DNA from: Sinomonas susongensis
Lineage (GTDB): Bacteria > Actinomycetota > Actinomycetes > Actinomycetales > Micrococcaceae
NCBI RefSeq assembly: GCF_005877005.1
Contig: NZ_SSNH01000009.1
Coordinates: 76,249-140,248 of the forward strand
Direction of reading: 5' to 3'
DNA length: 64,000 nucleotides
The position numbers were made by a program, and so were the translations under genes. Positions 3,960 through 54,057 of the stretch are shown in pieces. The notes below the pieces were generated by a model. That model was given only the letters and a program-made list of their open reading frames with translations. It ran no database searches and had not been told where the DNA came from. Within the stretch, counting starts at the first letter, position 1. Every line of letters starts with the position of its first letter.

Positions 3960-4079
3960 CCCCTAGCCCGGGCGGCCGTCCCTGCAACCGGGTGTCACAA
4001 GCGCCCTGCGTCAAGCCGGCCGTCCGGGGTACACCTTCGATGTCCAAGCAACCACGTCGGACCATCTGAAGGAGAAGCC

Positions 4080-4877: not shown

Positions 4878-4896
4878 GCGAGGGGGCTGCGAAGCC

Positions 4897-5418: not shown

Positions 5419-5569
5419 CTGTCCCCTCGCGTTGCCCGGCCCGGTGAGTCGACTACTATTCTCCCACGCGCCGTCGACCGCGGGGCAAACTGCGACGTCA
5501 TGGCCCGACTCGCACGGTCCCGGCCGGAGCCGCCCGCGCCTGCTTACCCCTCGGGGTCAGCGCTCAGGG

Positions 5570-10686: not shown

Positions 10687-11934
10687 CTAGAAGGCCCCGA
10701 TGCCGTTAGGTGTCCCGAGACCCGTCGGGCCGTCCCAGCCGGTGCGGGCGGCGCACCACTGAGGCGTCGTGCACGTGCCGTTGCTGCCCGAGGTGACGTC
10801 GAAGAGCGACGCCGCGTGGGCATAGGGGATGCTGTTCGCGTAGGTCCCGCTCGCCTTCGACCCGGTGTTGCCGGACAGCGCGTACACGGAGGCGATGATG
10901 GGCGCAGCCTCGCTCGTGCCACCGAACTGGCCCCACGACGAAGCCGTGCTCGAAGTCGGGTAGAGGACCGCGAGGCCGCCGTTGTTCGGATCCGCGACCG
11001 CTGCGACGTCATTCATGGCGCGCTTTGCGCAGCCCGTTCCGACGTTCGCCGCAGCCGGGAGCGCTGCGTTGTACGACGAGCAGCCCGACCCAGTGCCGCT
11101 CCACACCGTCTCCGACCAGCCGCGCGCTGTCGAGGACTTGACGAGGGACGTACCCCCGACAGCCGTCACGTAGCTCGACGTCGCGGGGTACGCCGCGCCC
11201 TGATAGCCGTTGTCTCCCGCGCTCGCCGTGACCGCGATGCCGGGGAAGCTGTAGTACTTCCCGTACGTCGCATCCGAGGCGTCGGAGCCCCCGTAGCTGT
11301 TGGAGATGGCGACGACGCCGGGCTGCTTCGCGGCGGTCTGCTCGGCCGTGCCGAGGTCGGCGAACGAGGTCGAGGACGCCTGGACCACGACGATCTTGCA
11401 GTCCGGGCAGGACGCGGAGACCGCGTCCACGTCGAGGGCCTGTTCCTGGGCCCAGCCGACGTTGAACGCCGGCGCGGCCGTCCCGCCCGACTCGTTGAGG
11501 ACGCGCAGGCAGCCGGTGCTCGCCGTGCATGCCGGGAGGCCGAACTGCTTGCGGTAGTTCGCGAGGTCGCTCGCGAGGTTCGGGTAGCCGTAGGCGTCGA
11601 CGATCGCGACGGTGCGGCCGCCCGAGGCGGTGCCCGTGAGCTTGTACGCGTCCCGGAGCTGAGCCGGAGTGAGCGCGCTCGCCGGGGGCGTCGTCGTCGT
11701 CAGCGGCCGGCCCTTGGTGTCGGTCACGACGCGCGCGGTGCACGCCGCCTGGCCGGCGGCGGGAAGCGAGCACACCTTGGCCGAGTGCTCGAGAGCCTGT
11801 GCTGATGGTGCCGCCATGGCGGCGCTGGTGCCGGCGAGGAGCCCGACTGCGACAAGCAGCGCGAGGCCGACGGCGGAGAGCAGCTTCCTGATGGGTAACG
11901 CCCCCTTCGGGTCTGAGAGTCTGGGAGCTCGCAC
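10687..11934 (-). CDS. Secreted S53 (sedolisin-type) serine peptidase
   Basis: Secreted acid-type endopeptidase of about 415 aa. A signal peptide (LLSAVGLALLVAVGLLAGTSAAMAA) begins at about nt 11885. Catalytic Glu164 and Asp168 lie in WAQEQALDVDA, and Ser341 in GGTSEAAP. The Ca-binding end DVTSGSNG ... GWDGPTGLGTP is intact and the protein stops right after it. An N-terminal pro-part with VCSLPAAGQAACTARV precedes the domain. The start is unresolved: GTG 11934 is the nearest canonical in-frame start, but an ideal AAGGGGG sits 8 bases before an ATC codon at 11892 that opens IRKLLSAVG. A second S53 protein with SLH repeats is at 54058. Confidence 0.85.
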   Translation of the reverse strand: MRAPRLSDPKGALPIRKLLSAVGLALLVAVGLLAGTSAAMAAPSAQALEHSAKVCSLPAAGQAACTARVVTDTKGRPLTTTTPPASALTPAQLRDAYKLTGTASGGRTVAIVDAYGYPNLASDLANYRKQFGLPACTASTGCLRVLNESGGTAAPAFNVGWAQEQALDVDAVSASCPDCKIVVVQASSTSFADLGTAEQTAAKQPGVVAISNSYGGSDASDATYGKYYSFPGIAVTASAGDNGYQGAAYPATSSYVTAVGGTSLVKSSTARGWSETVWSGTGSGCSSYNAALPAAANVGTGCAKRAMNDVAAVADPNNGGLAVLYPTSSTASSWGQFGGTSEAAPIIASVYALSGNTGSKASGTYANSIPYAHAASLFDVTSGSNGTCTTPQWCAARTGWDGPTGLGTPNGIGAF

Positions 11935-38908: not shown

Positions 38909-41032
38909 ATGACCATCGAGGCACCGGCGATGCCACCCGCCGCCCCGGCTGAGGCACCGCCAACGGCTCCCGCGGCCTCTCCTGATCCCCCCAGAGCCCC
39001 TCGCGCTCCAGTCCCGGGCCTTGGGCGGTCCCGCACTCGGCGCGGGCCCCGACCGCGCGGTGGCGAGGGCCGACGCCGTCGTGCGAGCCTCGCGGATCTC
39101 CGCCGCGCCGGCATCGCCGGATGGGCAGCGCATCTTGGTGCACCGACCGCCGAGGAGGTCTGGACACGCCGCATGGCCCGGGTCGGAGGGGTCGTGGCAG
39201 CCGCCGCGCTCTGCTTCTATCTCGTGTGGCGGATCGTGTTCACCCTGCCCACGGATCCCTTGGACGAGGTTGCAGCCTGGTCCATGGTCGTGTTCGAGTC
39301 TCTGCCGCTGCCCGGCATGATCCTCAACACCGTCACGTGGTGGAACATCGACGCCAGTGCGCCGCCGCCGAGCGGGAAGGGCGGGGGGCGGACCGTCGCC
39401 CTGCTGATCCCCACGTACAACGAACCGGCCGAGGTCCTCGCCCCGACAGTGGCCGCTGCCTGCGAGCTGGAGCCCGCCCACGAGACCTGGGTTCTCGACG
39501 ACGGGGACCGCTCGTGGGTCTCCGACCTGTGCCGCGCCTACGGCGCCCGGTACGTGAGACGCGACGTGCACGATCACGCCAAGGCCGGGAACATCAACCA
39601 CGCGCTCGGCCTCATGGAGCGCGAGGCCGCAGCCGGTGCCGTGGCCGTCGACATCATCGCGGTGCTGGACTGCGACCACGTTCCACTCCCGACCTTCCTG
39701 AGCTCGACGCTCGGATGGTTCGGGGACCCTGACATCGCCCTCGTCCAAGGGCCCCAGTCCTTCTACAACAGCGGCGCGTTCGACGACGACGGCGTCACCG
39801 GCGAGCAGGGGCTCTTCTTCAACGTGCAGATGCGGGCGCGCAACGCGGCCGGCGCAGGCTCGTTCTGGTGCGGATCCACCTCACTGCTGCGTGTCGAGGC
39901 CCTCCGCGAGGTGGGCGGAGTGGCGACGGAGACCATCACCGAAGACATGCACACCACCCTGAAGCTCATCCGGCGAGGGTGGAGGACGGTCTACCACCAC
40001 CAGACCCTGGCGCTGGGCCTCGCGCCCGCAACCCCGGAGCAGTACCTCCTCCAGCGCAGGCGCTGGGGAATGGGGGCCATGCAGATCCTCACCCACGAGA
40101 AGCTGTGGGCGGCGAAGCGGTGGATGTCCTGGCGGAACTTCCACGAGTACCTCAATGGGACGCTCTGGTGGCTCGAGGGGATCGGGACCCTCTTCGCCTT
40201 CCTCATCCCGGCGCTCGCGCTGGTCTCGGGTGCGCAGACCTCGACGGCCGACCCCCTGACGTTCTCGGCCGTGTTCGCAGTGACGTTCGCGGCTCGCCTG
40301 TGGGGAGCGAAGCGCCTCATGCGCCACCAGATCCACTGGCCCACGGCCTTCGCCCTGAGGATCTTCCGCATACCGATCGGCATCGCGTGCGTCTGGTGGC
40401 TGGCCACACGACGGCACCTCCGCTTCGAAGTGACCCCAAAGGGCGCAGCGGACAGTCGGGCCCGAGGAGCTCTGCCCCCCATCCTGATGGTGCTCGCGCT
40501 GGGGATCGCCTCGCTCGTCCTGTACTGCGGTCTGGGCCTCGCCGGAGTGATTGCCTGGAGGGCCACGCTCTCCTCCACCGTCGCCGCCGGCGCGTGGCTG
40601 CTGCTCTCGGCCGCCGTGATCGCGCTCGGTGTCGCCAGGATCCGTTCCGAGAAGTTCGCGACCTCCCGCAGGAACGCCCACCGCGTCGCCGTCTCCGCCG
40701 CGGTGACGGTGAACGGGGTCGACGGGCAGCTGATCGACATCTCCGTGGGCGGGGTGAAGGTCCACCTGCCCGTGGCCGTCCTCCCGCCCGAAGGGCAGGC
40801 GAAGCTCACGCTTCCTGAAGCGCCCGCCGTCGAGCTCGAGACGGTGAAAGTCTCAGCCGACGGTGACGGCGGGCAGACCGCATCACTGCGGGTGCGCCCC
40901 GGCGACTGGAACGCGCACAAGGTCCTGTCCCTGTGGCTCTTCCACACCCCTCCGGGTGCCGTGCCCGGCCTAGGCCATGGCATCCCCGCCATCGCCTCCG
41001 TCGCCCGAGCGCCAGGTCCCGCGTCCCGCTGA
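38909..41032 (+). CDS. bcsA: Cellulose synthase catalytic subunit with PilZ domain (BcsA-like)
   Basis: A 707-aa inner-membrane glycosyltransferase of family 2 that would polymerise UDP-glucose and export the chain. An N-terminal Pro/Ala-rich tail of about 85 residues precedes the first two helices. Catalytic residues: DDGDRSW, DCDHVP (DxD), TEDMHTT and QRRRWGMGAM. About five more helices follow. The C-terminal PilZ part begins with RRNAHR near residue 588 (RxxxR) and DISVGG, both needed for c-di-GMP. A good TAGGAGG precedes ATG 38909. No bcsB, bcsZ or bcsC follows, so the product might be a simpler beta-glucan. Confidence 0.92.
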   Translation: MTIEAPAMPPAAPAEAPPTAPAASPDPPRAPRAPVPGLGRSRTRRGPRPRGGEGRRRRASLADLRRAGIAGWAAHLGAPTAEEVWTRRMARVGGVVAAAALCFYLVWRIVFTLPTDPLDEVAAWSMVVFESLPLPGMILNTVTWWNIDASAPPPSGKGGGRTVALLIPTYNEPAEVLAPTVAAACELEPAHETWVLDDGDRSWVSDLCRAYGARYVRRDVHDHAKAGNINHALGLMEREAAAGAVAVDIIAVLDCDHVPLPTFLSSTLGWFGDPDIALVQGPQSFYNSGAFDDDGVTGEQGLFFNVQMRARNAAGAGSFWCGSTSLLRVEALREVGGVATETITEDMHTTLKLIRRGWRTVYHHQTLALGLAPATPEQYLLQRRRWGMGAMQILTHEKLWAAKRWMSWRNFHEYLNGTLWWLEGIGTLFAFLIPALALVSGAQTSTADPLTFSAVFAVTFAARLWGAKRLMRHQIHWPTAFALRIFRIPIGIACVWWLATRRHLRFEVTPKGAADSRARGALPPILMVLALGIASLVLYCGLGLAGVIAWRATLSSTVAAGAWLLLSAAVIALGVARIRSEKFATSRRNAHRVAVSAAVTVNGVDGQLIDISVGGVKVHLPVAVLPPEGQAKLTLPEAPAVELETVKVSADGDGGQTASLRVRPGDWNAHKVLSLWLFHTPPGAVPGLGHGIPAIASVARAPGPASR

Positions 41033-41080
41033 CGTCATCGCGGGCTCGCGAGCCGCACGACCCGGGAACGCCGAACCTTC

Positions 41081-42232
41081 TCAGCCCCCCTGGTGGCGGA
41101 CCGGCGTGAGCGGAACATCGTTGGGCGGGGGCAGCGTCCCGCCGCCGCGGAGGACGACAGGTCCCACCGGCTTCGAGGCAGGGACGGGCGGAGGCGGAAG
41201 GGGAGCCGGCTTTCGAGGAGGATTCGGAGCGGGAGGGATGTCCGCCGTCGTTCCGTAGGACGGCGGAGCCGGATTGTGCACGGAGGGGTCGACGAGGTCC
41301 GCGAGCCCGTGGTCGCTGTCCACCCTGTCCACCCCCAGTTGCGGCAGCCCGAGCAGCTGTATCACCGTCCGCGGGACGGTGGCGTGGTTGGACCACCTGC
41401 TGTCGATCCCGGCCTTGACCGGGCCGCCGAACATGAGCAGCGGGACCCTGGGGCCGTAGGCGAGCTGGACGCCGTCGGGCGTGTGCTCCACGTTCGGGGT
41501 GGCGACATGGTCATCCCAGCCCCCCCAGTCGTCCCACGTGAGCATGAACACCGTCTCGTCCCAACCGCCGGACTTCACCACTGCGTCCACGCCCTCCCAG
41601 ACCTTGTTCATCCCGATCGTGACGTCGGCGGGCGGGTGCTCGTCTTGGGGTGAGTCGTGCCACAGGTAGACGAGCGGCGGCAGGCTGCCGGCCGCTGCGT
41701 CGGATACGAACCGGGCGTTCGGCAGGAGGTTCGGAGAGCCGTGGAGCTGCGGGTAGAACCCGGCCGGGTAGCTGTTGCTTCCGGTGTAGCAGCGCCATGC
41801 GATGCCGGCTTCCTCGGCGAGGCCCGGGACGGACGGCATATCCCACAGCGGGGGCGGCTGGGTCCGCGACGGGTTGCGCAGCGTCGGGGACTGCCCTCCG
41901 AGCAGCAGGAGGTGGTTCGGCGTCGAGTTGGTCCCGAACCCGCTGCAGTGGTTCTCGAGGAAGGCCCCGGTCAGTGCCAGATGGGCATAGAAGGGCAACA
42001 CCGCCGTCGTGTCGAACTGGGTATGCGTCGCGGCGTGGTGGCCGGTGAGCCAGTCGTGGTAAGCGCGCCGGTCGTGGGGCTGGTCGGACGAGGGCGGGTT
42101 GGGCTGGATCGGCCAGTCGGCGACGACGTTCGCCCCGTACGGAGCGAGTCCTCGGAAGTAGTTGTCGGTCGTGTGGTTCTCCTGCACCATCACGATGACT
42201 CGCTTCACCCTGCTGTCCGCCATGATTCCCAT
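41081..42232 (-). CDS. Phosphoesterase family protein (phospholipase C/acid phosphatase type)
   Basis: A 383-aa enzyme of the alkaline-phosphatase-like phosphoesterase family. It opens VKRVIVMVQENHTTDNYFRGL; the ENHT(F/T)DNYF motif at the start is the family signature. It later has LTWDDWGGWDDHV with metal ligands, GPRVPLLMFG and WSNHATVPRTV. There is no signal peptide before the domain, unlike most secreted relatives. The last 60 residues are Pro-rich and likely disordered. GGAGGGG precedes ATG 42232. Confidence 0.9.
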   Translation of the reverse strand: MGIMADSRVKRVIVMVQENHTTDNYFRGLAPYGANVVADWPIQPNPPSSDQPHDRRAYHDWLTGHHAATHTQFDTTAVLPFYAHLALTGAFLENHCSGFGTNSTPNHLLLLGGQSPTLRNPSRTQPPPLWDMPSVPGLAEEAGIAWRCYTGSNSYPAGFYPQLHGSPNLLPNARFVSDAAAGSLPPLVYLWHDSPQDEHPPADVTIGMNKVWEGVDAVVKSGGWDETVFMLTWDDWGGWDDHVATPNVEHTPDGVQLAYGPRVPLLMFGGPVKAGIDSRWSNHATVPRTVIQLLGLPQLGVDRVDSDHGLADLVDPSVHNPAPPSYGTTADIPPAPNPPRKPAPLPPPPVPASKPVGPVVLRGGGTLPPPNDVPLTPVRHQGG

Positions 42233-42432
42233 CCTCTCGACCCCTCCGGACCTGCGTTCTCTGGCGATTCTTCTCCCGCCCTCGCCGCGCCGTCACCGGT
42301 TGGCGCTCGGCTTTCACGGCATGTTCATCCGCTGGCCAGCTGCCTCATGTGTGGGCCCGTCGTGCCCGGGTACCAACCGCGTGGCACCCCAACCGAAGCG
42401 GAACGTGCTTCGGATCGTCGAAAGGATCCCCC

Positions 42433-43434
42433 ATGCGAGCAGCGCAGATCAGCTCCCCCGGCGCCGACCTCGAACTCGTCGAGCGCGACATCCCCGATGT
42501 GCCTCGCGGCCACGTTCTGGTCAAGGTCGCGGCCAACGGCATCTGCCACAGCGACTCCATGCCCGCGGCCGGCATGGCCTCCTCCTACCCCCGCATCCCC
42601 GGCCACGAAGTCGCCGGAACCATCGAGACCCTCGGTGAGGGCGTCACCCAGTGGGCACCCGGCCAGCGGGTCGGCATCGGATGGTTCGGCGGAGCTTGCT
42701 TCGAGTGCGACTCCTGCCGCCGCGGTGACTTCGTCTCCTGCCACGTCGGCAAAGTCACCGGACTCACCTCCGACGGCGGCTACGCCGAGTACCTCGTCGC
42801 CCCGGCCGACGCCCTCGCCGCCATCCCCGACGAGCTCGGCTTCGCCGAGGCCGCACCCCTCATGTGCGCCGGCGTCACCACGTTCAACGGCATCCGCTCG
42901 AGCGGTGTCCGCCCGGGCGACCGCGTCGCAGTCCTCGGCCTCGGCGGCCTCGGCCACCTCGGCGTCCAGTTCGCAGCCAAGCTCGGCTTCGAGACCATCG
43001 CGATCGCCCGCGGAGCAGAGAAGGCCGACTTCGCCCGCGAGCTCGGTGCCGACCACTACATCGACAGCACCACCTCGGACGTCGCCGCGGAACTGAAGGC
43101 CCTCGGCGGAGCCGACCTCGTCCTCGCGACCGTCACCGACGCCGACTCGATGTCTGCCACGATTCCAGGGCTCGCGGCCCGCGGCCGCCTCGTCGTCCTC
43201 GGCGTCCCGCACGAGCCCCTCGCCGCCAACGCGGGCGAGCTCGTCCAGGGCGGACGCACGGTGGCCGGTCACGCCTCCGGCACTGCCAAGGACTCCGAGG
43301 ACACTCTGCGCTTCGCGGCCCGCACCGGGGTGCGCCCCCTGATCGAGACCTACCCCCTCGAAAAGGCCGCCGACGGCTTCGATCGCATGATGTCCGGCAA
43401 GGCTCGCTTCCGCGTAGTCCTCACCACCGACTGA
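42433..43434 (+). CDS. Zinc alcohol dehydrogenase (MDR, with structural zinc)
   Basis: A 333-aa alcohol dehydrogenase converting alcohols and aldehydes with NAD(P). Catalytic zinc ligands are Cys38 (GICHSD), His58-Glu59 (GHE) and a later Cys. The structural zinc Cys89, 92, 95 and 103 are all present. Rossmann loop is VLGLGGLGHLGVQFA. AAAGGA supports ATG 42433. A single gene closed by a strong terminator at 43443-43480, so it is not part of the downstream operon. Confidence 0.94.
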   Translation: MRAAQISSPGADLELVERDIPDVPRGHVLVKVAANGICHSDSMPAAGMASSYPRIPGHEVAGTIETLGEGVTQWAPGQRVGIGWFGGACFECDSCRRGDFVSCHVGKVTGLTSDGGYAEYLVAPADALAAIPDELGFAEAAPLMCAGVTTFNGIRSSGVRPGDRVAVLGLGGLGHLGVQFAAKLGFETIAIARGAEKADFARELGADHYIDSTTSDVAAELKALGGADLVLATVTDADSMSATIPGLAARGRLVVLGVPHEPLAANAGELVQGGRTVAGHASGTAKDSEDTLRFAARTGVRPLIETYPLEKAADGFDRMMSGKARFRVVLTTD

Positions 43435-43442
43435 CTCCTCGC

Positions 43443-43480
43443 GCCGAGCAGTGTGCACTAAGCACCCTGCTCGGCCTTTT
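43443..43480 (+). terminator. Rho-independent terminator after the alcohol dehydrogenase
   Basis: GCCGAGCAG pairs perfectly with CTGCTCGGC (43467-43475) around a 15-base loop, followed by CTTTT. Located 8 bases after the stop. Confidence 0.88.
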
Positions 43481-43560
43481 CAGTGCACCATGCATATGTG
43501 ATCCGTACCTCAACCTGAATAGCCTGACGGTCATCAGCCCATCTTCTTGGAAGGACCACG

Positions 43561-44901
43561 ATGGCTAGCCAGGTTCACTCTGATGACTTCGCTCTCTCTC
43601 GGGTGACGCCCGGGGCCCGGAAACCGTGGTTTGGCATCGCGGTCCAGCGCTTCGGGCAGGTCTCCGCACTCTCGCAGTTCCTTTTGGGCGCAACGCTCGG
43701 CTACAGCATGACCTTCGGCGAGGCGGCCCTGGCGCTGCTGCTCGGTTCCGTCATCCTCGAGGTCATCATGTGCATCGTGGGCATCATCGGTCAGAAGGAG
43801 GGCCTGAACACGGCACTCCTGGCCCGATGGACAGGCTTCGGGGAAATCGGCGCATCGCTTGTCGGCCTCGCGATAGGCATCAGCCTCATCGGATGGTTCG
43901 GGATCCAATCCGCTATCTCGGCGCAGTCCCTCGACGCGCTCATGCCGGGCGTCCTGCCCGCCTGGGTCTGGAGCCTCCTCTTCGGACTCGGAGTCACCGC
44001 AATCGTAGCCTTCGGCTTCGTCGGCATGCAGTGGCTCGCCAACATCACCGTGCCGCTGTTCCTGATCCTCGTCGGCTGGTCCGTGCTCAGCGAGTTGACC
44101 CGCCACGACTTCGGGACGCTCCTCACCGGCCCCGCACCCGGGCCGGCCATGAGCGTGTGGCAGGGCACCGGGATCGTCGCGGGCGGTCTGATCGTCGGTG
44201 CGATCATCACGGCCGACATGACCCGCTTCAACCGCTCCAAAGCCGATGTGGTGAAGCAGACCGTCGTCGGCGTCAGCCTGGGCGAATTCGTGATCGGGCT
44301 CGCAGGCGTGCTCCTGGCCCACGCGGCGGCAACAGGTGACATCGTGGCCATCGTCACCTCTTCCATCGGCTTCGTCGGTCTCGTCATCGTCATCACCGGC
44401 ACTCTCAAGATCAACGACTGGAACCTCTATTCCTCCACACTCGGGCTGGTCAACTTCATCTCGACCGCGTTCGGCAGGAACCTGCACCGCATGTCCGCCA
44501 CGATCGTCTTGGGCGTCGTCGGATCGATCCTCGCCGCAGCGGGCATCCTCTCCCAGTTCGCCGGGTTCCTCATGATCCTCGGGGTCGCATTCCCTCCCAT
44601 CGCGGGAATCATGGTCGCCGAATACTTCGTCGTGAAGCGGTGGCGCGGCGAGCTCGACGCCACGCGTGCCACAGGTGCCCTGCCTGCCACCGCCCCTCGG
44701 ATCGTCCCGGCCACCATCGTCGTCTGGCTCGCTTCCGCCTTGGTGGGCTACTTCACCACCTGGGGGATCCCTCCCCTGCTCAGCCTGCTGCTGTCCATGG
44801 TGCTCTACATCGGTGCCGGGAAGCTCGGCTTGGTCCGCGGCCTCGGGGCCGCCGTCACGAAGCAGGCCCCACCCGCCGTCGTCGCTGACGCAGCAGCCTG
44901 A
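43561..44901 (+). CDS. NCS1-family permease (cytosine/hydantoin/allantoin type)
   Basis: A 446-aa inner membrane carrier with about twelve helices. It opens with FGIAVQRFGQVSALSQFLLGATLGY, and has GLNTALLARWTGFGEIGA and DMTRFNRSKADVV typical of CodB-like NCS1 members, which import cytosine, allantoin or 5-substituted hydantoins (Mhp1). First gene of the locus with hydantoinase and DUF917 proteins, which points to a hydantoin-like substrate. The ATG 43561 has GGAAGGA at good spacing. It lies 80 bases past the terminator of the preceding gene. Confidence 0.92.
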   Translation: MASQVHSDDFALSRVTPGARKPWFGIAVQRFGQVSALSQFLLGATLGYSMTFGEAALALLLGSVILEVIMCIVGIIGQKEGLNTALLARWTGFGEIGASLVGLAIGISLIGWFGIQSAISAQSLDALMPGVLPAWVWSLLFGLGVTAIVAFGFVGMQWLANITVPLFLILVGWSVLSELTRHDFGTLLTGPAPGPAMSVWQGTGIVAGGLIVGAIITADMTRFNRSKADVVKQTVVGVSLGEFVIGLAGVLLAHAAATGDIVAIVTSSIGFVGLVIVITGTLKINDWNLYSSTLGLVNFISTAFGRNLHRMSATIVLGVVGSILAAAGILSQFAGFLMILGVAFPPIAGIMVAEYFVVKRWRGELDATRATGALPATAPRIVPATIVVWLASALVGYFTTWGIPPLLSLLLSMVLYIGAGKLGLVRGLGAAVTKQAPPAVVADAAA

Positions 44902-44933
44902 CACAGACCCCATCCAACGAGAAAGCGAGAATC

Positions 44934-46481
44934 ATGCACATCGGCATCGACGTCGGCGGCACCAACACAGACGCTGTCCTCATGGAGGGCACCCGAGCAA
45001 TAGAGGGGGTCAAGCACTCGACCACTCCCGATGTCACCTCCGGCATCGTGCAGGCCATCGAGGACCTCCGAGCGAGGCATCCCTTCCAGGACACCCAGAT
45101 CGACGCGGTGATGATCGGCACGACCCACTTCATCAACGCCCTCGTGCAGGCCAATCGCCTCGCACCCACAGCGGCCCTGAGGCTCGGGCTCCCTGCGACC
45201 AAGGCCCTCCCCCCGCTTGTCGACTGGCCGGAGGCGCTGAGCAGCGCCATCCAGGGCCGAAGCTATCTCGCCCACGGGGGCTACGAGTTCGACGGGCGCC
45301 CCATCTCGCCCCTGGACCCAGAGGAGCTGCGGAAGCACGCGGCGGACATGAAGTCGAACGGCATCCGCTCTGTCGCGGTTTCCTCCGTGTTCAGCCCTGT
45401 GAACCATGATCTGGAGGTCGAGACCGGCCGAATCCTGGCCGACGAGCTGGGCCCGGAGGTCGCCATCTCGCTCTCCCACGAGATCGGCCGGATCGGGCTG
45501 CTCGAGCGCGAGAACGCAACGATCATCAACGCAGCGCTGCGGGAACTCGCCTCGGAAATCGTCGACGGCCTCACGGCCGCCGTCCGAGCCGAGGGGATCA
45601 GCGCTCCGATCTTCCTCAGCCAGAATGACGGGACGCTCATGGACGAGGACTACGTCCGCCTCTACCCCGTGGCCACCTTCGCCTCAGGCCCCACAAACTC
45701 CATGCGCGGGGCCGCCGTCACGAGCGGGCTCGCGACCTGTGCGGTTGTAGATATCGGAGGAACGACAACCGATATAGGCCTTCTCATCAACGGGTTCCCC
45801 CGTGAGACCGCCAATGAGGTGAAGGTCGCAGGCATCCGAACGAACTTCCGCATGCCGGACGTGCTCTCCATCGGAATCGGCGGCGGGAGCATCGTCGATC
45901 CCGTATCGGGTGAGGTCGGCCCCGAGTCCGTGGGCTACAGGCTCACGACGGAGGCGCTCGTCTTCGGCGGATCGACCCTGACAGCGACAGACATCGCCGT
46001 GGCAGCGGGGCGTGCCGACATCGGTGACCCGTCGAAGGTCGCTCACCTCGATCCGGATTTCATCCGCCGGGTGCTCGACCGGATCGCCGAGCGGATCTCG
46101 GAGGCGGTAGACCGGATGCGCACCTCGCCTGATCCCATCCCCGTGGTCGCGGTTGGAGGGGGTTCGGTCCTCCTGCCTGACCGGTTGCCGCTCTTCGGCA
46201 CAGTGCACCGGCCGGAGAACTACGCCGTTGCCAATGCGATCGGCGCCTCGATCGCACAGGTCGGCGGCGAGATCGACAAAGTGTTCGCCGTCGAACCCGG
46301 GCACCGTGAGGAGACCCTTGCCCAGGTGCGGGCCGAGGCCTCGGACAAGGCGGTAGCTGCCGGCGCCAAACCCTCCACGGTCATGATCGTAGACTTCGAC
46401 GAGGTGCCCCTCCCCTACCTTCCCGGCAACGCCACGCGCATCCGCGTCAAGGCCGTCGGCGACCTCGATATGGGGGCGTGA
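44934..46481 (+). CDS. Hydantoinase/oxoprolinase family protein (HyuA-like, short form)
   Basis: A 515-aa ASKHA-fold ATP-dependent amidohydrolase-like protein. Phosphate-1 loop is GIDVGGTNTDAVLM at residues 3-16, phosphate-2 loop is VVDIGGTTTDIGLL near residue 275, and the adenosine motif is VVAVGGGSVLLP near 405. It lacks the C-terminal part of about 180 residues that takes classical HyuA to around 700. Would cleave a five-membered cyclic amide with ATP. No hyuB partner is nearby. The stop is one base from the first DUF917 gene. Fungal proteins fuse this domain to DUF917 (from memory), supporting a joint complex. Confidence 0.92.
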   Translation: MHIGIDVGGTNTDAVLMEGTRAIEGVKHSTTPDVTSGIVQAIEDLRARHPFQDTQIDAVMIGTTHFINALVQANRLAPTAALRLGLPATKALPPLVDWPEALSSAIQGRSYLAHGGYEFDGRPISPLDPEELRKHAADMKSNGIRSVAVSSVFSPVNHDLEVETGRILADELGPEVAISLSHEIGRIGLLERENATIINAALRELASEIVDGLTAAVRAEGISAPIFLSQNDGTLMDEDYVRLYPVATFASGPTNSMRGAAVTSGLATCAVVDIGGTTTDIGLLINGFPRETANEVKVAGIRTNFRMPDVLSIGIGGGSIVDPVSGEVGPESVGYRLTTEALVFGGSTLTATDIAVAAGRADIGDPSKVAHLDPDFIRRVLDRIAERISEAVDRMRTSPDPIPVVAVGGGSVLLPDRLPLFGTVHRPENYAVANAIGASIAQVGGEIDKVFAVEPGHREETLAQVRAEASDKAVAAGAKPSTVMIVDFDEVPLPYLPGNATRIRVKAVGDLDMGA

Positions 46482-46482
46482 A

Positions 46483-47574
46483 ATGGCCTGGACAATGACA
46501 GCGGGCGACGTCGAGAACGTCGCCCGGGGCGCAGCCGTCCTGGGCACCGGTGGGGGTGGAGATCCCTATATCGGGGCGCTCCTGGCGACCCGCGCGCTTC
46601 AGGAACACGGGGAAATCCCCGTGGTGACGCTCGAGGAGCTCCCCGAGGACGCGCTGGTGCTCACCGTCGCGATGATGGGCGCACCCACCGTCATGGTCGA
46701 GAAGCTCCCAAGCCTCGAGGAGGTCATCGCCCCCGTGCGTGAACTCGGCGCGTACCTCAGCCGACCCGTGACTCACATCGCGTGTGCCGAAATCGGTGGA
46801 GTCAACTCCACGATCCCCGTCGCGGCCGCAGCCGCCCTGGGGCTGCCGCTCCTCGACGCCGACGGCATGGGGCGGGCATTCCCCGAGCTGCAGATGGTCC
46901 TTCCCACGCTCTACGGTGTGACCGCTTCCCCACTGGCCTTCGGAGACGAGAAGGGCAATGTCGGCGTCCTCCAGACTGTCGACAACAGCTGGACGGAGCG
47001 CATCGCAAGGGTCGCATGCGTCGAGATGGGCTGCTCCGTCATGATCTCCGGCTTCCGGATGACCGGTTCCCAAGCCCGGGAATCGCTTGTCGAGGGCTCG
47101 CTTTCGAGGTGCATCGCGATCGGAAAGGAGATCGTCCGGGCACGCGCGGCAAAGTCCGACCCCGTGGCGGCCGCCGTCGAGCTCCTGGGCGGCCGCGAGC
47201 TGTTCGCGGGCAAGGTCGCCGACGTCCAGAGGGCTACGACGAGAGGCTTTGCCCGCGGGCAGGCTCGAATCGACGGGCAGGACGCAGTCCTCATGCTCTC
47301 GTTCCAGAACGAGCATCTTGTCGCGGAATCCGACGGCAGGATCCTCGCCACGACTCCGGACCTCATCATCGTGCTCGAACACGAGACCGGCGAACCCATT
47401 ACAACCGAGGGCCTCCGTTACGGGCAGCGCGTCCGCGTGGTCGCAGCACCTTCGGACGAACGGTGGCACACGTCCGCGGCCCTGGCCATGGTCGGTCCCG
47501 GCTATTTCGGCTACGACCACCCTTCCTACCGTTTCGACGGCTCGGTGGAAGACCTGGCGGAGGCGATCGCGTGA
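46483..47574 (+). CDS. DUF917 family protein, copy 1
   Basis: A 363-aa member of the DUF917 family, which I recall Pfam now naming after S-methyl-thiohydantoin desulfurase. Seen: LGTGGGGDPYIG at residues about 21-32, MGAPTVMVEKLP, EIGGVNSTIP, DADGMGRAFPEL, FQNEHLVAE and TGEPITTEGLRYGQRVRV. All motifs recur in copy 2, so this is a duplicated gene. It overlaps the next by four bases (GTGA). The reaction here is not proven. Confidence 0.9.
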   Translation: MAWTMTAGDVENVARGAAVLGTGGGGDPYIGALLATRALQEHGEIPVVTLEELPEDALVLTVAMMGAPTVMVEKLPSLEEVIAPVRELGAYLSRPVTHIACAEIGGVNSTIPVAAAAALGLPLLDADGMGRAFPELQMVLPTLYGVTASPLAFGDEKGNVGVLQTVDNSWTERIARVACVEMGCSVMISGFRMTGSQARESLVEGSLSRCIAIGKEIVRARAAKSDPVAAAVELLGGRELFAGKVADVQRATTRGFARGQARIDGQDAVLMLSFQNEHLVAESDGRILATTPDLIIVLEHETGEPITTEGLRYGQRVRVVAAPSDERWHTSAALAMVGPGYFGYDHPSYRFDGSVEDLAEAIA

Positions 47575-48677
47575 GCTGGCAGCTGAGAGCGTCCGACCTC
47601 CCCGATCTCGCGCGCGGCGCGACGCTTCTTGGGACCGGAGGCGGAGGCGACCCCTACATCGGAAGGATGCTGGCCGAGCGGGTGCTCGGGGACCGGGCTA
47701 TCACGGTCCTCGACCCGGACGACCTCGCAGACGAAGCGTTCGTCATCCCGACCGCGCAGATGGGCGCACCCACCGTCATGGTCGAGAAGATCCCCGCCGG
47801 AACCGAACCCACTCTCGCCCTTCGGACACTCGAGGAACACCTCGGCAGGAAGGCCGACGCGACGATGCCGATCGAATGCGGAGGCATCAATTCGATGATC
47901 CCGCTCATCGTCGCAGCCGAGACCGGGCTCCCCGTGGTGGATGCCGACGGCATGGGCCGGGCATTCCCCGAGCTCTACATGGAGACGTTCGCTGTCTACG
48001 GCGTTCACGGCTCCCCCCTTGCCATCGCCGGAGAGCGCGGCGAGCGGGTTGTCATCGACACGGGTGACGACGACCGGCAGATGGAATGGCTCGCCCGGGG
48101 GATCACCATCCGACTCGGCGGCGTGGCCCACATCGCCGAGTACGCGATGACCGGGGCCGAGGTCAAGCGCACAGCAGTGCCTCGGACCCTGTCCATGGCA
48201 CTGTCGCTGGGGCGCTCGATGCGCTTGGCCCGCGAAGAGCACCGGTCTCCGTTCGACGCCATCGCCCTCACCCTGGCAGGGACTCAGTACGCTCATGTCC
48301 GCGAGCTCTTCGTCGGCAAGGTCACGGACGTGGAGCGCCGAACCACGGACGGCTTCGCGAAGGGGCGGGCCGTGATCTCCGGCACGGGGGACGGGGAGGA
48401 CTTCGAGATCGAGTTCCAGAACGAGAACCTCATCGCGCGCCGGGGCGGGGAAGTGGTGGCCATCGTGCCAGACCTCGTCTGCGTCGTCGACCACGAGTCG
48501 GCGGAGCCGATCACCACGGAAGGACTCCGTTACGGCCAACGGGTGCGCGTCCTCGGAATCTCCACTCCCGAAATGATGCGGACGCCCGAGGCCCTCGAAG
48601 CATTCGGGCCGTCGTCCTTCGGTCTGAAGGAGGACTTCGCACCCGTCGAGGGAGCGGCCGTGGCACTCCGCCCGTAG
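47571..48677 (+). CDS. DUF917 family protein, copy 2
   Basis: A 368-aa paralogue of copy 1, starting at GTG 47571. It keeps LGTGGGGDPYIG, MGAPTVMVEKIP, ECGGINSMIP, DADGMGRAFPEL, QNENLIAR and AEPITTEGLRYGQRVRV; the changed Cys (ECGG versus EIGG) is notable and could affect a metal or nucleophile site. About half the residues look shared with copy 1. The two may form a heteromer. Its stop overlaps a TAGGCT box that likely starts a transcript for copy 3. Confidence 0.9.
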   Translation: MSWQLRASDLPDLARGATLLGTGGGGDPYIGRMLAERVLGDRAITVLDPDDLADEAFVIPTAQMGAPTVMVEKIPAGTEPTLALRTLEEHLGRKADATMPIECGGINSMIPLIVAAETGLPVVDADGMGRAFPELYMETFAVYGVHGSPLAIAGERGERVVIDTGDDDRQMEWLARGITIRLGGVAHIAEYAMTGAEVKRTAVPRTLSMALSLGRSMRLAREEHRSPFDAIALTLAGTQYAHVRELFVGKVTDVERRTTDGFAKGRAVISGTGDGEDFEIEFQNENLIARRGGEVVAIVPDLVCVVDHESAEPITTEGLRYGQRVRVLGISTPEMMRTPEALEAFGPSSFGLKEDFAPVEGAAVALRP

Positions 48678-48680
48678 GCT
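48675..48680 (+). promoter_or_regulatory. Candidate internal -10 box (TAGGCT)
   Basis: TAGGCT lies on the stop codon of DUF917 copy 2, six bases before ATG 48687, with no ribosome binding site between. This fits a leaderless promoter for copy 3 and pucR. Confidence 0.45.
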
Positions 48681-48686
48681 GACAGC

Positions 48687-49724
48687 ATGGCCAGAACCCT
48701 CGAACGGCCCCAGCTGCCTGCTCTCGCCCGGGGATTCGCACTTCTGGGGTCCGGCGGTGGCGGTACTACCACAATGCTCGAGCTGATGCTCGGACGCTCC
48801 CGCGGTTGGCCGATCGCCATCGCCGGACCGGAAGAGTTGGATCCGACGACGCCGTGCCTCGCCGCGGCGTTCGTCGGTTCGACAATCCTGCTCGGCGAAC
48901 GCCTGCCCGGCGACGCACCGTTCGAGCCGCTGGTCCACGCCGTCGAACGATGGTTGGGCATCCGCGTCCCCGCGGTGTGCTCCCTCGAGGGCGGCGGGCT
49001 CAACGGCCTGGTTCCTCTCACCTTCGCGCCCGACCGCATCGTCGTGGATGCGGACTGCACCGGTAGGGCCGTCCCGGGACTTGACCAGATATCGTTGTTC
49101 GTCGACCGCCTCCCAGGCATCGTCGCCGCGTGCGACACCGGGGCTGGTGGGGCAATGCTGGTCAGCACCGACCGGGCCATAGACGCCGAGCGCGTCATCC
49201 GTTCGGCGATCATCCAGGCCGGGGGTGCAGGCGGGGCGGTCTTCGCAGGGTTCACAGTCGGAGACCTCATAGAGCACGCGATTCCAGGTCACCTCGACGT
49301 GGCGCTCCGGCTCGGAAGCGCATACCTGAGCTCTGCCCATTGGCCTCCGGCAGCGCTGGCTGGCGCCCTGGGCGGACGGCTCCTGGGGCACGGGCGGATC
49401 ACCTCCGTCGACACCGATGACCGGGATCCCTTCGTGAGGACCGTTGAATTGGCCGGTGTCAACGGCGAGGTCCACCGGATCGTCTCGCGGACAGAGACCC
49501 TTGCGTTCATGACCGACGGCCGGCTCGAGGCGTCCGCGCCGACCGTCATTGCCCTGCTCGATGCGGTGTCCCGCGAGATCCTCGAGGTCACCGACCTGAC
49601 CCTCGCCCGGCACATCGTGGCGATCGAGCTGCCGGGCCCTGCGTGGTGGCACGCCTCACCCCACAGGCTCCGACGGGTCCAGCCCTCGGCCTACGGACTG
49701 ACAGAACTGGACGCGATCACGTGA
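48687..49724 (+). CDS. DUF917 family protein, divergent copy 3
   Basis: A 345-aa relative of copies 1 and 2. It keeps the opening ARGFALLGSGGGGTTTMLEL, SLEGGGLNGLVPL (for E-GG-N) and DADCTGRAVPGLDQ (for DADGMGRAFPEL), but lacks DPYIG, MGAPTVMVEK and the C-terminal EPITTEGLRYGQRV. So the fold is probably the same but the active site is changed; it could be regulatory or act on a different compound. The stop overlaps the pucR start (GTGA). Confidence 0.8.
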   Translation: MARTLERPQLPALARGFALLGSGGGGTTTMLELMLGRSRGWPIAIAGPEELDPTTPCLAAAFVGSTILLGERLPGDAPFEPLVHAVERWLGIRVPAVCSLEGGGLNGLVPLTFAPDRIVVDADCTGRAVPGLDQISLFVDRLPGIVAACDTGAGGAMLVSTDRAIDAERVIRSAIIQAGGAGGAVFAGFTVGDLIEHAIPGHLDVALRLGSAYLSSAHWPPAALAGALGGRLLGHGRITSVDTDDRDPFVRTVELAGVNGEVHRIVSRTETLAFMTDGRLEASAPTVIALLDAVSREILEVTDLTLARHIVAIELPGPAWWHASPHRLRRVQPSAYGLTELDAIT

Positions 49725-51235
49725 CCGCGGAGCAGCTCACGCTTGAGGCTCTGCTCGCCCACCCCGCGAATGGCGGACTCCGCATGATCGTGGGGTCGGG
49801 CTCCACTGTCTGGGACCAGGCCGTCGTCGAACAGGACGAACCCGGACTGCCCAGCAGCGGGCGAGGCCAGCTGGCCATCCTCACCACGGCCCTGTCCTCA
49901 GCCCCTTGGCAGCAGGACGCCCTCATGCGCCGCGTCCACGAGCGTGGATTCCCAATCGTCGCCCTCCCCCGGGCCGAACGGCTCAGCGCGGGCGCCCGGC
50001 AGATCGCCGAACGCCTAGGGCTAGCCGTCCTCGACGTCGACCGCCCCATCGACCTCACCAAAGCCTGCTGGGAACTGTCCGAGGCCGGGGACGCCCTCAC
50101 TCTCAGGTATGTGCGCAGAGTTGCACAGTCATTCGCGTACTCGGCCGAGGATCTGGCTGGCCTCCTCCGCCATCTCGCCGGAAACGTGGGCCATGGCCTC
50201 GCCGTCGTCGACGCCTCTGGTGTACTCCATGAAGCAGGCGGCCATCTCGAGGACAGCCTGCGCAAGGACATCCGTTTCGACGCCTGGCTCGACGTCGCCC
50301 GATCCGGATCCTCCAGCGCCGTCTCCGTCCGCATCGAGAGCCCCACCCACACGGGCCTACGCCTCGTCCTTTTCGGACAGGGGCTCAGCAGCGCTCAGCT
50401 CAGGGCTCTCTCCGCAGCCGCCGAGATAGCCATGCCCGCCATCGCGGCACGCATCCTCATCGACGATGTCGCCGCCGTCAACGACGCCGCGGCCTCATCG
50501 GGACTGCTCAGGGACTTCCTCGACTTGCGCGGCGGGTCCGATCCCGAGGTCGAACGGCGGATGCTCGAGCACGGGTGGAAAACTGCCGGATACCACCTCG
50601 GGTTCCGGGTGATCGGTCGTGGTCGCGTCGATCCCTTCCAGCTGCTGCGCCACGTCGCTCAGGGTTTGGGCCGCCTCGGCACCGACTCCCACGCGACCAC
50701 AAGCGGCCGAGGGGTCACCGGATGGTTGAGCTTCCCTGACATGCCCCCTCCGAACCAGGTGGAGAAGGCAGTGTCGGCACTGCGCGAGCTCCACACCCAG
50801 ACACGCAGATCCTTCAACATCGCCACCGGCGTCGGATCGATGCAGCACGGATCACCCGGCCTGGCTTCGACGCTCGGTGAGGCCGCGGACGCGGCACGCA
50901 TTGCCGCCGACCGGGCATCCACTGGATGGTTCCTCCGCGTGGACAGCCTCGGCCTCGATCAGCTGCTCCTCGCATGGACCGGCAGCGACACATTCATCCC
51001 GGCAGCCGAGTCCCTGCTCGCTTCGCTCCGCAAGGACCGAAACGAACTCCTCACGACCCTCTCGGCCTACCTCGACCACGAATCGAACATCGTCGCCACC
51101 GCGACGGCCCTCAACCTCCATCGCAACACCGTCGCAACCCGAATCCACCGGGCGCAGGAGATTCTCGGCATCGACTTCTCGGACCCCGAATCCCGGCTCG
51201 CGCTCCATCTGGCGTGCAGAGCCCTGCTCAGATGA
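49721..51235 (+). CDS. PucR family transcriptional regulator of the hydantoinase/DUF917 locus
   Basis: A 504-aa regulator starting at GTG 49721. The N-terminal PucR-type domain (LTLEALLAHPANGGLRMIVG) precedes a helix-rich region and a CdaR/GGDEF-like part. The C-terminal HTH reads LSAYLDHESNIVATATALNLHRNTVATRIHRAQEILGID. PucR proteins are autoregulators of purine and nitrogen-heterocycle use. Its coupling to the DUF917 genes makes it the probable local regulator. Confidence 0.92.
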   Translation: MTAEQLTLEALLAHPANGGLRMIVGSGSTVWDQAVVEQDEPGLPSSGRGQLAILTTALSSAPWQQDALMRRVHERGFPIVALPRAERLSAGARQIAERLGLAVLDVDRPIDLTKACWELSEAGDALTLRYVRRVAQSFAYSAEDLAGLLRHLAGNVGHGLAVVDASGVLHEAGGHLEDSLRKDIRFDAWLDVARSGSSSAVSVRIESPTHTGLRLVLFGQGLSSAQLRALSAAAEIAMPAIAARILIDDVAAVNDAAASSGLLRDFLDLRGGSDPEVERRMLEHGWKTAGYHLGFRVIGRGRVDPFQLLRHVAQGLGRLGTDSHATTSGRGVTGWLSFPDMPPPNQVEKAVSALRELHTQTRRSFNIATGVGSMQHGSPGLASTLGEAADAARIAADRASTGWFLRVDSLGLDQLLLAWTGSDTFIPAAESLLASLRKDRNELLTTLSAYLDHESNIVATATALNLHRNTVATRIHRAQEILGIDFSDPESRLALHLACRALLR

Positions 51236-51305: not shown

Positions 51306-52736
51306 CTAGGACCGCGCCCCGCGGAATCTTGAGACGACGCTGCGGGCTGCGCGCCGCAGGGGGTCCGGACTTGAAGGAGACGCGCCGGCGGCATTGTCGC
51401 GTTCGGCCCGCAGTTCGCCTTGGAGCCAGTCGACGTGCTGGAGGAGGTTTCCGATGGCGAGCTCATTGCCTGCGTTCAATGGCCCAGCCCAGCCTTCCGA
51501 ACCAGCGGCCAGCACACCGGACCCGTCCTGCCAGATCGGAGCCTCGGGCAGAGCGGTAGGGCTCGCCGGCTGCCCTCGGAGGGCCGAGGCCGCGGCGTCC
51601 CACCAGCGGCCGTGGGCCTCGGCCATCTTCGGGTGCAGTCCGTCGAGGTGGCTGGCGAGCCTCCCCCGGGTCTGGAGAGCCGCCTCGGTCCAGGCATCTT
51701 CCTCAGATCCCCCGAGCTGGCGCAGGGAGCGGAGGAGACCCCGGGCGCCCCAGTTCTCGAGCGCGCCGCCGATCCTGACTTCACCGTAGAGGTCCACAGC
51801 CACCGGCATGACCGGCACACCGGCCCCCAGGGCGAAGACCACGGGGTGGTACCTCGTCGAGAGGACGAGGGAGGCGTCGACGGTGGCCTGCGAGGTCTCC
51901 AGGGCGTTCTTCTGCGACAGGACCTCTGCTTCGACGCCGTCGAGCAGCGCGGCCACGGCCCTGTGGACCTCCGTATCGCCGTCGTCCTGGCCGAAGGTCG
52001 AAACGTGCGGGACGAAGAGGGCCGGGAGCCCGGATGCCCGGGCGGCCCGCGTGACGAGCCGCGCCATGGTCTCTATGTAGTCGCTGCGGCCCATGGCTCC
52101 GCTCCCGGGGGCCAGGGTGACAGCCAGGTAGCCCCCGTCTTCCGAGCGCTGAGTCAGGAAGGACGCGTCGTCGAGGACCCAGGCCGAGGGCACGCCGAGG
52201 TCGTCCAGCAGCTCCTTCGACTCTCGTTCGCGTGCACCCACGAGCCGGGCGTCGGCGAGGACGGGACCAAGATGGGCGGCGTCCGGGGCGGTCAGGACCG
52301 GACCCACGGTCTGCCCCGACACCACGACACGTATCCCCTGCTGGGCAGCGAGGTGCATGAAGGCCATCCGCTCGAAGAGCAGTCCTCCGTACTGGGAGGT
52401 CAGATTGCCTCCCCCCGCAAGGAGGAGTGCCTCGCACCCTTCGAGGGCTCCGAGGATCGCGGCGCGCAGTGCGCGGGTTCCTTCCGAGGCGCTCCGGCCG
52501 GAGGGGTCGAGCAGCTCTTCGAAGGCCCGATGGCGCTCGAACGCGTTCCAGGGGACCTGGGGCCTCAACCGGGCGGGCTTCCCGTATTCACGTTCGGATT
52601 CGCTCGGATCCCGGGTCAGGATGACCAGGTCTTCGATTCCGCGGGCCTCGAGCTCGCGGGCTGCTGCGTGCGCCATGGCTTCATCGCCCACGTGGTACTG
52701 GGTCTGGCCGACGTCGCCGAGCACTGCCGTCTTCAT
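51306..52736 (-). CDS. Polysaccharide pyruvyl transferase family protein
   Basis: A 476-aa enzyme that would move pyruvate from phosphoenolpyruvate onto a sugar, as a ketal. Seen: AVLGDVGQTQYHVGDEAMAHAA, LLLAGGGNLTSQYG, VVVSGQTVGPV, SLVLSTRYHPVVFALGAGVPVMPVA and VLDDASF. It is longer than CsaB (about 360) because of a C-terminal part of about 110 residues with a predicted helix (LLQHVDWLQGELRAERDN). It follows a glycosyltransferase (four-base overlap). SLH-type proteins downstream may bind the pyruvylated glycan. Confidence 0.9.
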   Translation of the reverse strand: MKTAVLGDVGQTQYHVGDEAMAHAAARELEARGIEDLVILTRDPSESEREYGKPARLRPQVPWNAFERHRAFEELLDPSGRSASEGTRALRAAILGALEGCEALLLAGGGNLTSQYGGLLFERMAFMHLAAQQGIRVVVSGQTVGPVLTAPDAAHLGPVLADARLVGARERESKELLDDLGVPSAWVLDDASFLTQRSEDGGYLAVTLAPGSGAMGRSDYIETMARLVTRAARASGLPALFVPHVSTFGQDDGDTEVHRAVAALLDGVEAEVLSQKNALETSQATVDASLVLSTRYHPVVFALGAGVPVMPVAVDLYGEVRIGGALENWGARGLLRSLRQLGGSEEDAWTEAALQTRGRLASHLDGLHPKMAEAHGRWWDAAASALRGQPASPTALPEAPIWQDGSGVLAAGSEGWAGPLNAGNELAIGNLLQHVDWLQGELRAERDNAAGASPSSPDPLRRAARSVVSRFRGARS

Positions 52737-53779
52737 GCGTTCCTCCCCCGATCAGAGGCCGGAAGGGCGGCTTTCAGGCGGGCTGCCAGGCTGCGGACGG
52801 CGCGGTGGCCCCGGCGGAGGCGCCACGTGCCAGGAAGAGTGGACTCCCGGACCATGTCCTTGAGGTCATGCAGCTCTCGCTCGACTCGATCAAGGTGCTC
52901 GTGCAGCCGATGCATCTCGAAGCCAAGGAGCTCCCTCTCGTACAGGAGTGGGCCGAGCCCGTTGGCCTGGGCGTGCTCGCGCAGGAGCCGGTCGCGGACC
53001 TGGAGCGAGAACGCATGGTGGTCGGCGAGTCCTGCGATCATGCTGTTCGCTTCCGAACCGCTCGCGTCACGGCGCTGGTTCCAGAAGGCGAGGGGCCTTC
53101 CCTTGATGAAGCCGACGCGGTGCTGGACGACGAAGCGGAGGTGGAATTCCCAGTCGCCGACGACGGGAAGGCTCTCGTCGAAGCCGCCGAGAGCCTCGTA
53201 CGCCTCCCGCCGGAACAGGAAGGAGATCGGGACGAACCTGTTGTAGTGCAGCAGGTCCACCAGCGTGATCGCCTGCATGTTCGGCTCCAGCGGGACCCGT
53301 TCCTGGACTTCGCGTCCGTTCTCCGTGAGCTGCTCGAAGACGATCTCGGTCTGAACGGTCACCCCGCCGTCCTCGGGGTGGGCGTCGAGATAGGCGACTG
53401 TCTCGGCCAGGAACTCCGGCGCCCACTCGTCGTCGTCGTCATGGATGGCGACGTACGCGCCCTCCGAGGCTCGGATTCCCTGATTAGATGCTGCTTCCAT
53501 GCCGCTGCTGTCCTGATTGTGCAGCACGCGCACCCGCCCGGCGAGCCTGTCCGCGTGCTCGGCGAGGACCTCCTCGACCTTGTTCGGATCACCGCCGTCG
53601 TTGACGACGACGAGCGCCCAGTCCCGGAACTCCTGGGCCAGAATGCTTCTGAGCGCGCGCTGCAGCAGGCGCGGCCGGTCTTTCGTCCGGGTGATGATCG
53701 CGACGCGCGGCTGACTCTCAGAAGACAAACTTCGACCTCGTAAATGGCAGGGTGAGCGCCCCTCAGAACCAGGGCGCAT
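52733..53779 (-). CDS. Family 2 glycosyltransferase
   Basis: A 348-aa GT-A-fold transferase. VAIITRTKDRPRLLQRALRS and VVVNDGGDPNKV at the start, IHDDDDEW (DxD) near residue 115, EALGGFDESLPVVGDWEF near residue 194. A C-terminal helical part (HRLHEHLDRVERELHDLKDMV) may form a coiled coil. The start is uncertain: ATG 53779 has no ribosome binding site and TTG 53728 is an alternative. First gene of the two-gene unit with the pyruvyl transferase; probably adds the sugar that is then pyruvylated, though the order is inference. Confidence 0.9.
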   Translation of the reverse strand: MRPGSEGRSPCHLRGRSLSSESQPRVAIITRTKDRPRLLQRALRSILAQEFRDWALVVVNDGGDPNKVEEVLAEHADRLAGRVRVLHNQDSSGMEAASNQGIRASEGAYVAIHDDDDEWAPEFLAETVAYLDAHPEDGGVTVQTEIVFEQLTENGREVQERVPLEPNMQAITLVDLLHYNRFVPISFLFRREAYEALGGFDESLPVVGDWEFHLRFVVQHRVGFIKGRPLAFWNQRRDASGSEANSMIAGLADHHAFSLQVRDRLLREHAQANGLGPLLYERELLGFEMHRLHEHLDRVERELHDLKDMVRESTLPGTWRLRRGHRAVRSLAARLKAALPASDRGRNA

Positions 53780-53969
53780 GACGTGACTGGACCGCCCGAA
53801 CAGCGGCCAGCTGCTCAGCCATTCTATCGGGACCGGCCCCGGGCTTTTCGGCTACATGGATACCTGCCTGCACCGCCCCATTCTGGCGCGCGCGGCTTTG
53901 ACGGATCCGTCATGTTTCAGACTGGGGGATGAAAGGGTATGACTGGAAACGGGTTGTCCTGTCAGACTT

Positions 53970-54020
53970 CAGGAAAGACTGTTCGTGCTCCAGGAAAGTC
54001 TGTTCGTGCCGCAGGAAAGC
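53970..54020. repeat. 21-bp repeat, about 2.4 copies, upstream of the S53-SLH gene
   Basis: CAGGAAAG(A/T)CTGTTCGTGC occurs at 53970-53988 and 53991-54009, with a partial third copy from 54012. The frame is open through it and would encode RKDCSCS-RKVCSCR. It lies 40-90 bases before ATG 54058, so it is either leader DNA or an N-terminal extension. Confidence 0.85.
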
Positions 54021-54057
54021 CGCCTCCGCGGTGATTGGCATGCATCAGGAAGAAGGA

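Follow-up and report, generated by a model that had tools for sequence, protein, structure and literature searches.

A conserved six-gene actinobacterial locus with a short HyuA, a PucR-type regulator and three DUF917 proteins, one of which may have a sensory role

The ATP-dependent oxoprolinase, hydantoinase and caprolactamase (CapAB) systems pair a HyuA with a HyuB protein, and for caprolactamase PMC8453981 reports that one subunit phosphorylates the ring and that the other, metal-bearing subunit opens it. The DUF917 family is described as not characterised in PMC11055893, whose authors suggested a hydantoinase-like role and whose DUF917 loci also encode a cyclodipeptide oxidase, a racemase and AroM. 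Here, we describe a locus of Sinomonas susongensis, located in a 64,000-nucleotide stretch of contig NZ_SSNH01000009.1 (positions 76,249 to 140,248, hereafter the window), in which six same-strand genes (43561-51235) encode an NCS1 permease, a short HyuA, three DUF917 proteins (D1, D2, and D3), and a PucR-type regulator. The intergenic gaps are 32, 1, -4, 9, and -4 bases, in this order. A preliminary description of the window had reported these six same-strand genes and the sizes of their junctions, both of which are borne out by the gene calls, and Pfam confirms its family assignments.

The locus shares with the HyuA+HyuB systems the N-terminal and core domains of HyuA and both ATP phosphate motifs, but its HyuA is short (515 aa, with Hydant_A_C unmatched) and has an altered adenosine motif, and HyuB is unmatched in the genome. 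Like the loci of PMC11055893, it places DUF917 beside hydantoin-type genes; unlike them, it encodes no cyclodipeptide oxidase or racemase among its six proteins, and NCS1 and PucR are found instead.

We propose that the six genes form a locally regulated operon whose products take up a small nitrogen heterocycle and open it with the help of ATP. A CodB-like NCS1 permease would import this compound, possibly a cyclic amide or a hydantoin-, lactam-, or thio-analogue. The short HyuA, which is of the ASKHA ATPase type and lacks its customary HyuB partner, would activate the ring at the cost of ATP, after which D1 and D2 would open it in HyuB's stead. D3, a DUF917 paralogue turned PucR partner, would bind the substrate or an intermediate and signal to PucR, which would act at a dyad present in two copies, 108 and 78 bases 5' of the permease gene. 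Judged from sequence, the model as a whole appears evenly poised between right and wrong, while its catabolic-operon part is likely to be correct. No biochemistry on any member of the gene set was found, a point against the model.

Conservation of the six-gene set

Genome contigs were scanned with a D3 alignment, which gave 85 relatives, and the best 80 of these were kept as named loci (L numbers). Their genera include Sinomonas, Agromyces, Plantibacter, Microbacterium, Mycetocola, Leucobacter, and Brevibacterium, as well as Galactobacter, Specibacter, Nakamurella, Amycolatopsis, Saccharopolyspora, Prauserella, and Nonomuraea. All six genes are present in 73 of the 80 named loci, and in all 73 they stand in one order and on one strand. 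The comparison of gene order across actinobacterial genomes that the preliminary description had called for thus finds the set kept together, and the six genes are a conserved unit, real beyond chance. Among the seven incomplete loci, three are truncated by contig ends (L103, L133, and L134), L130 shows no D2, L162 shows no NCS1, L142 starts within the operon with its D2 and D3 approximately 6 kb apart, and only D3 and PucR are seen in L143. The upstream alcohol dehydrogenase gene (42424-43434) lies outside the conserved gene order. In genome samples, PF06032 matches were found in 3 of 15 genus genomes and 17 of 296 phylum-sample genomes (the S. susongensis genome being counted in both), and D3-like matches in 14 of 295 family genomes and 44 of 394 class genomes.

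Related arrangements were also observed. Four other actinobacterial loci (L174, L176, L178, and L180) have NCS1, two DUF917 genes, and HyuA in a row, with PucR unmatched, and a plasmid of Haloferax mediterranei (L168:3129-7957) carries ABC transporter genes, DUF917, HyuA, and two further DUF917 genes, with PucR not annotated. A short-chain dehydrogenase gene is located between D2 and D3 in nine named loci (L147:9225-9965, L157:9154-9948, and 7 more), and a relative lies divergently beside NCS1 in L102, L105, and L116.

D3 and the PucR-linked DUF917 lineage

The regulator was recognised by its HTH_30 (75.6 bits) and GGDEF_2 (38.1 bits) domains; the N-terminal PucR domain PF07905 gave no match up to an E value of 0.1, and the N-terminal part of the protein is long. 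A DUF917 gene stands directly 5' of PucR in 76 of the 80 named loci, and in the remaining four the contig breaks off within PucR or ahead of it. For a first tree, 85 of 293 DUF917 rows, chosen by us from 36 loci, were labelled as PucR-adjacent if they were the nearest upstream DUF917 with PucR as the next same-strand partner, the labels having been reset after cruder ones needed 7 changes. The 25 PucR-adjacent rows make up one side of a single branch (SH-aLRT 96), so that the label needs 1 change, compared to a mean of 21.8 for shuffled labels, and none of 500 shuffles was as low. A second tree of 107 rows from 53 loci, to which 20 stretches found through PF06032 were added and for which a simpler model was used, again placed the PucR-adjacent rows (23) on one side (SH-aLRT 97), and the new PucR-adjacent case, L190, falls in the same lineage. 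The preliminary description had made no distinction among the three DUF917 genes; by both trees, D3 is a member of a separate, PucR-linked lineage.

This lineage has letters of its own (D1 numbering): M138 is replaced by Q in 24 of 25 rows, K244 by R in 22, and P68 by T in 21, and R316 is kept in 1. In 14 close pairs, D3 ranks first among the six genes by dN/dS in 10, second in 2, and third and fourth in 1 each, with values that always lie between 0.06 and 0.23. The median bit ratio to the window protein across 52 loci is 0.60 for both D3 and PucR, compared to 0.86 for NCS1 and HyuA, 0.76 for D1, and 0.84 for D2, and in the other 21 loci it is 0.17 for D3 and 0.18 for PucR, compared to 0.58-0.68 for NCS1, HyuA, D1, and D2. 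The lineage, the genomic context, and the letter changes together suggest that D3 may be a co-sensor for PucR, a role that we consider plausible, if somewhat short of an even chance.

Several observations weigh against this role. The trees rest on rows chosen by us and on quick searches, with long branches flagged; moreover, the PF06032-derived set contributed only one new PucR-adjacent case. D3 may still be an enzyme, since it retains the whole fold, is under purifying selection, and keeps most of the invariant polar residues: D125, D127, R131, and E277 in 25 of 25 rows of the lineage, E73, N108, and R176 in 24, and E103 and E172 in 23. The bit ratios of D3 correlate in rank with those of PucR (0.81) no better than with those of the enzymes (0.84-0.87), and our confidence in a co-sensor was therefore lowered slightly. 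In addition, the 80 loci were collected through similarity to D3 and cannot tell how frequent the enzymes are without it.

PucR was also found beside altered copies of HyuA. All 4 of the 126 aligned HyuA sequences that fail the tests for both ATP phosphate motifs adjoin DUF917 and PucR. Cassettes of a HyuA-like protein of approximately 440 residues without ATP motifs, DUF917, and PucR were identified at L190:4601-8482, L082:6598-10581, and L191:1665-5553, with the motif loss in L191 judged by eye and its PucR match lying within 3256-5553. The same stretches contain a HyuB gene and, in L190 and L191, a full-length HyuA gene as well. Two further loci show related arrangements. In L080, a HyuA without the motifs stands between DUF917 and PucR, and in L079, PucR is divergent from a DUF917 and a HyuA that has lost one motif and deviates by one letter in the other. 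The DUF917 proteins of both are outside the PucR-adjacent lineage, and the association with PucR would therefore have arisen more than once. We tentatively consider, as a minority possibility, that a family of PucR regulators senses via detached, non-catalytic copies of the enzymes under its control and that a working DUF917 replaced HyuB beside the short HyuA. The detached copy would then mostly be DUF917 (D3) and, at some loci, DUF917 together with a motif-less HyuA beside an intact HyuA/HyuB or HyuA/DUF917 pair.

The proposed ring-opening block and the candidate operator

Both ATP phosphate motifs are kept in 120 of the 126 distinct HyuA sequences; besides the 4 without either, 2 lack the first only, one of them owing to a late frame start. 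In the HyuA group of the window, the adenosine motif has GPESVGYRLTTEALVFGG-like letters, compared to GP.SAG..PGP in full-length HyuA. Because of this departure, which speaks against the proposed chemistry, we treat ATP use by the short HyuA as a prediction.

HyuB (PF02538) has no match in the whole genome of S. susongensis and hence none in the block, in agreement with the preliminary description, which had noted no hyuB and concluded that this is not the classical hydantoin pathway. PF02538 is likewise unmatched in 6 of 10 tested genomes bearing the block or a variant of it (S. susongensis included, and one of the six being 85% complete), and a one-query phmmer search (E 1e-10) gave no HyuB match in any of the 80 named loci. 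The same description's statement that hyuC and dihydropyrimidinase are missing agrees with the six block proteins, in which alone they were looked for and none of which is either enzyme. A short HyuA next to DUF917 is a frequent arrangement elsewhere: among the 20 selected PF06032-derived stretches (19 from 15 of 16 other phylum-sample genomes and one from the genus sample), 17 have a short HyuA with both motifs, and the short HyuA adjoins DUF917 in the five annotated plasmid regions examined. HyuB is also present in 5 of the 20, and thus HyuA/HyuB and HyuA/DUF917 systems can be neighbours. By analogy with the division of labour in caprolactamase, D1 and D2 would take the place of HyuB. As a 12-row DUF917 alignment contains no invariant His or Cys, their chemistry would differ from that of HyuB.

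Upstream of NCS1, the dyad GTGCR-N3-YGCAC occurs twice. A pair with at most 3 mismatches in total was found in 66 of 75 upstream regions, with a start-to-start spacing of 30 bases in 48 loci and 31 in 18 (spacings of 29-32 were tried), and the first copy begins at -126 to -106 in 65 of the 66. Random windows of the same loci contained a pair in 28 of 2,250 cases, some of which possibly overlap the dyad itself. In the S. susongensis genome at spacing 30, no pair other than that at 43453-43495 has as few as 2 mismatches, and 7 others have 3. The operon's pair is the best match in 3 of 6 genomes (G000, G581, and G461). PucR may bind this candidate operator. The motif was read from the very upstream regions that were used for the count, and the loci include many close relatives; a reversed dyad has 12 matches in S. 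susongensis, and such reversed controls outnumber the pattern matches in each of the 6 genomes. The operon's pair is among the 3-mismatch matches in G013 and was not found in G076 and G151, and seven upstream regions, Galactobacter ones included, show no pair even at 4 mismatches. In L190, single dyads with 1 mismatch occur four times, twice in overlap, within 10865-11127, just 5' of the full-length HyuA gene.

By eye, the first dyad of the window lies in the loop of a hairpin at 43440-43480 (CCGAGCAG...CTGCTCGG, then TTTT). This hairpin may serve as terminator of the dehydrogenase gene upstream, although it is absent from the output of the terminator scan.

The start of PucR at 49721 (Table 1) is our choice, as its longest frame begins at 49643. 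On one side of the operon, the window contains a glycosyltransferase of the cellulose-synthase-like kind, whose PilZ match is weak (22.4 bits, cut-off 22.5), and a phosphoesterase-family protein encoded on the opposite strand (38909-42232); on the other side (51306-55887), a polysaccharide pyruvyl transferase and a family-2 glycosyltransferase on the minus strand are followed by a subtilase-type protein with three SLH domains.

Table 1. Genes and candidate operator elements of the locus, in window coordinates.
Feature	Coordinates	Strand	Characteristics
Tandem operator-like dyad, copy 1	43453..43465	.	GTGCACTAAGCAC, 1 mismatch to GTGCRNNNYGCAC; 108 bases 5' of permease ATG
Tandem operator-like dyad, copy 2	43483..43495	.	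GTGCACCATGCAT, 1 mismatch; 30 bases beyond copy 1
NCS1-family permease	43561..44901	+	Pfam PF02133; nearer CodB than Mhp1
Short HyuA, 515 aa	44934..46481	+	PF05378+PF01968 (Hydant_A_N, Hydantoinase_A); Hydant_A_C unmatched; ATP phosphate motifs DVGGTNTD, DIGGTTTD
D1, DUF917 / S-Me-THD-like	46483..47574	+	PF06032+PF20906; family motifs kept
D2, second DUF917	47571..48677	+	PF06032+PF20906; family motifs kept; GTG start; overlaps D1 by 4 bases
D3, third DUF917 (divergent; PucR-adjacent lineage; putative co-sensor)	48687..49724	+	PF06032+PF20906
PucR-type regulator	49721..51235	+	GGDEF_2 + HTH_30; GTG start overlapping D3 stop by 4 bases

Competing readings and significance

The three DUF917 proteins could instead be subunits or successive enzymes of one catabolic complex, with D3 preceding PucR merely as the last of them in the operon. 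We regard this as a serious possibility, though clearly below an even chance, as the PucR-adjacent DUF917 proteins form one lineage and D3 and PucR also occur apart from the enzymes: the stretches fetched for L143 and L165 contain them with no HyuA, D1, or D2, and in L076 (divergent) and L077 (facing, approximately 4 kb away) they lie on the strand opposite HyuA and DUF917. Moreover, gaps of at least 250 bases split D2 from D3 in 14 of 73 loci, and none is found between HyuA and D1 or between D1 and D2; such gaps also occur between D3 and PucR in 3 loci (probably through a loose start of the PucR match) and between NCS1 and HyuA in 1. The gaps between D2 and D3 should be read as few independent events, since 13 of the 14 fall in L144-L163, on the Amycolatopsis-Saccharopolyspora side, and to this extent they count for less in favour of a separate D3.

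Two other readings concern the substrate. That a nucleobase-like compound is imported and used, with HyuA and DUF917 opening a pyrimidine or related ring and not a hydantoin, would fit the PucR-type regulator and the permease, whose best solved relative is CodB (84.7 bits). The 25.8 bits for Mhp1 speak against the preliminary choice of that carrier as the model. In Bacillus, PucR has a role in purine use. However, the permease reaches 157 bits against the cytosine permease model (NCBIfam PRK11017) with its cut-off of 326, and no deaminase or other nucleobase enzyme is present among the six proteins, which makes this reading unlikely. We consider still less probable the preliminary suggestion that the locus degrades a compound of the thiohydantoin or S-methyl-thiohydantoin type, such as one derived from ergothioneine. 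The three proteins do belong to the Pfam family named S-Me-THD (PF06032 and PF20906 bits of 189 and 214 for D1, 197 and 217 for D2, and 94 and 81 for D3, all above the cut-off of 27), D1 and D3 share the 2o3i fold, and D1 and D2 align with the NCBIfam desulfurase models over almost their whole length. Nevertheless, all remain far under the equivalog cut-off of 450 for S-methyl thiohydantoin desulfurase (NF058532; D1 129, D2 94, and D3 32 bits) and the cut-off of 440 for thiohydantoin desulfurase (NF058529; D1 96 and D2 69 bits), with D3 matching the former partly and the latter not at all. These scores lower the claim of membership, and a related reaction may still be catalysed. As for ergothioneine, the genome's one aromatic-lyase gene (PF00221) lies approximately 1 kb or less from the sole urocanase gene and is therefore most likely HutH and not ergothionase, so that a dedicated ergothionase beside histidine ammonia-lyase was not found. 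In a Streptomycetaceae plasmid variant of the operon (L170:3907-12177), the two DUF917 genes, one D1-like and one D3-like, are separated by genes for OsmC and for a member of the "PLP-dependent cysteine synthase family". These could be a sulfur clue. The sulfur reading draws on this variant and on the family name, and the desulfurase cut-offs speak against it; the sulfur genes were seen in that one variant, and neither cysteine synthase nor OsmC was found among the ten neighbour proteins scanned.

Overall, the analysis supports the preliminary description as regards a catabolic-type gene set, conserved as a unit and different from HyuA+HyuB. It does not support the Mhp1 model, and it supports thiohydantoin desulfuration and an ergothioneine source weakly at most. 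In the proposed operon, D3 would follow the logic of yeast Gal3/Gal1, in which a galactokinase copy senses for its own pathway, an enzyme copy having turned co-regulator; the putative case described here differs in being bacterial, operon-encoded, and tied to a PucR regulator. Should D1 and D2 replace HyuB, ATP-dependent ring-opening enzymes would exist in a second architecture. Should D3 be a co-sensor, duplicates of catabolic enzymes would have become sensor subunits in their own right for a regulator family that is common in bacteria, and D3-PucR together with the tandem dyad would constitute a compact, testable switch.

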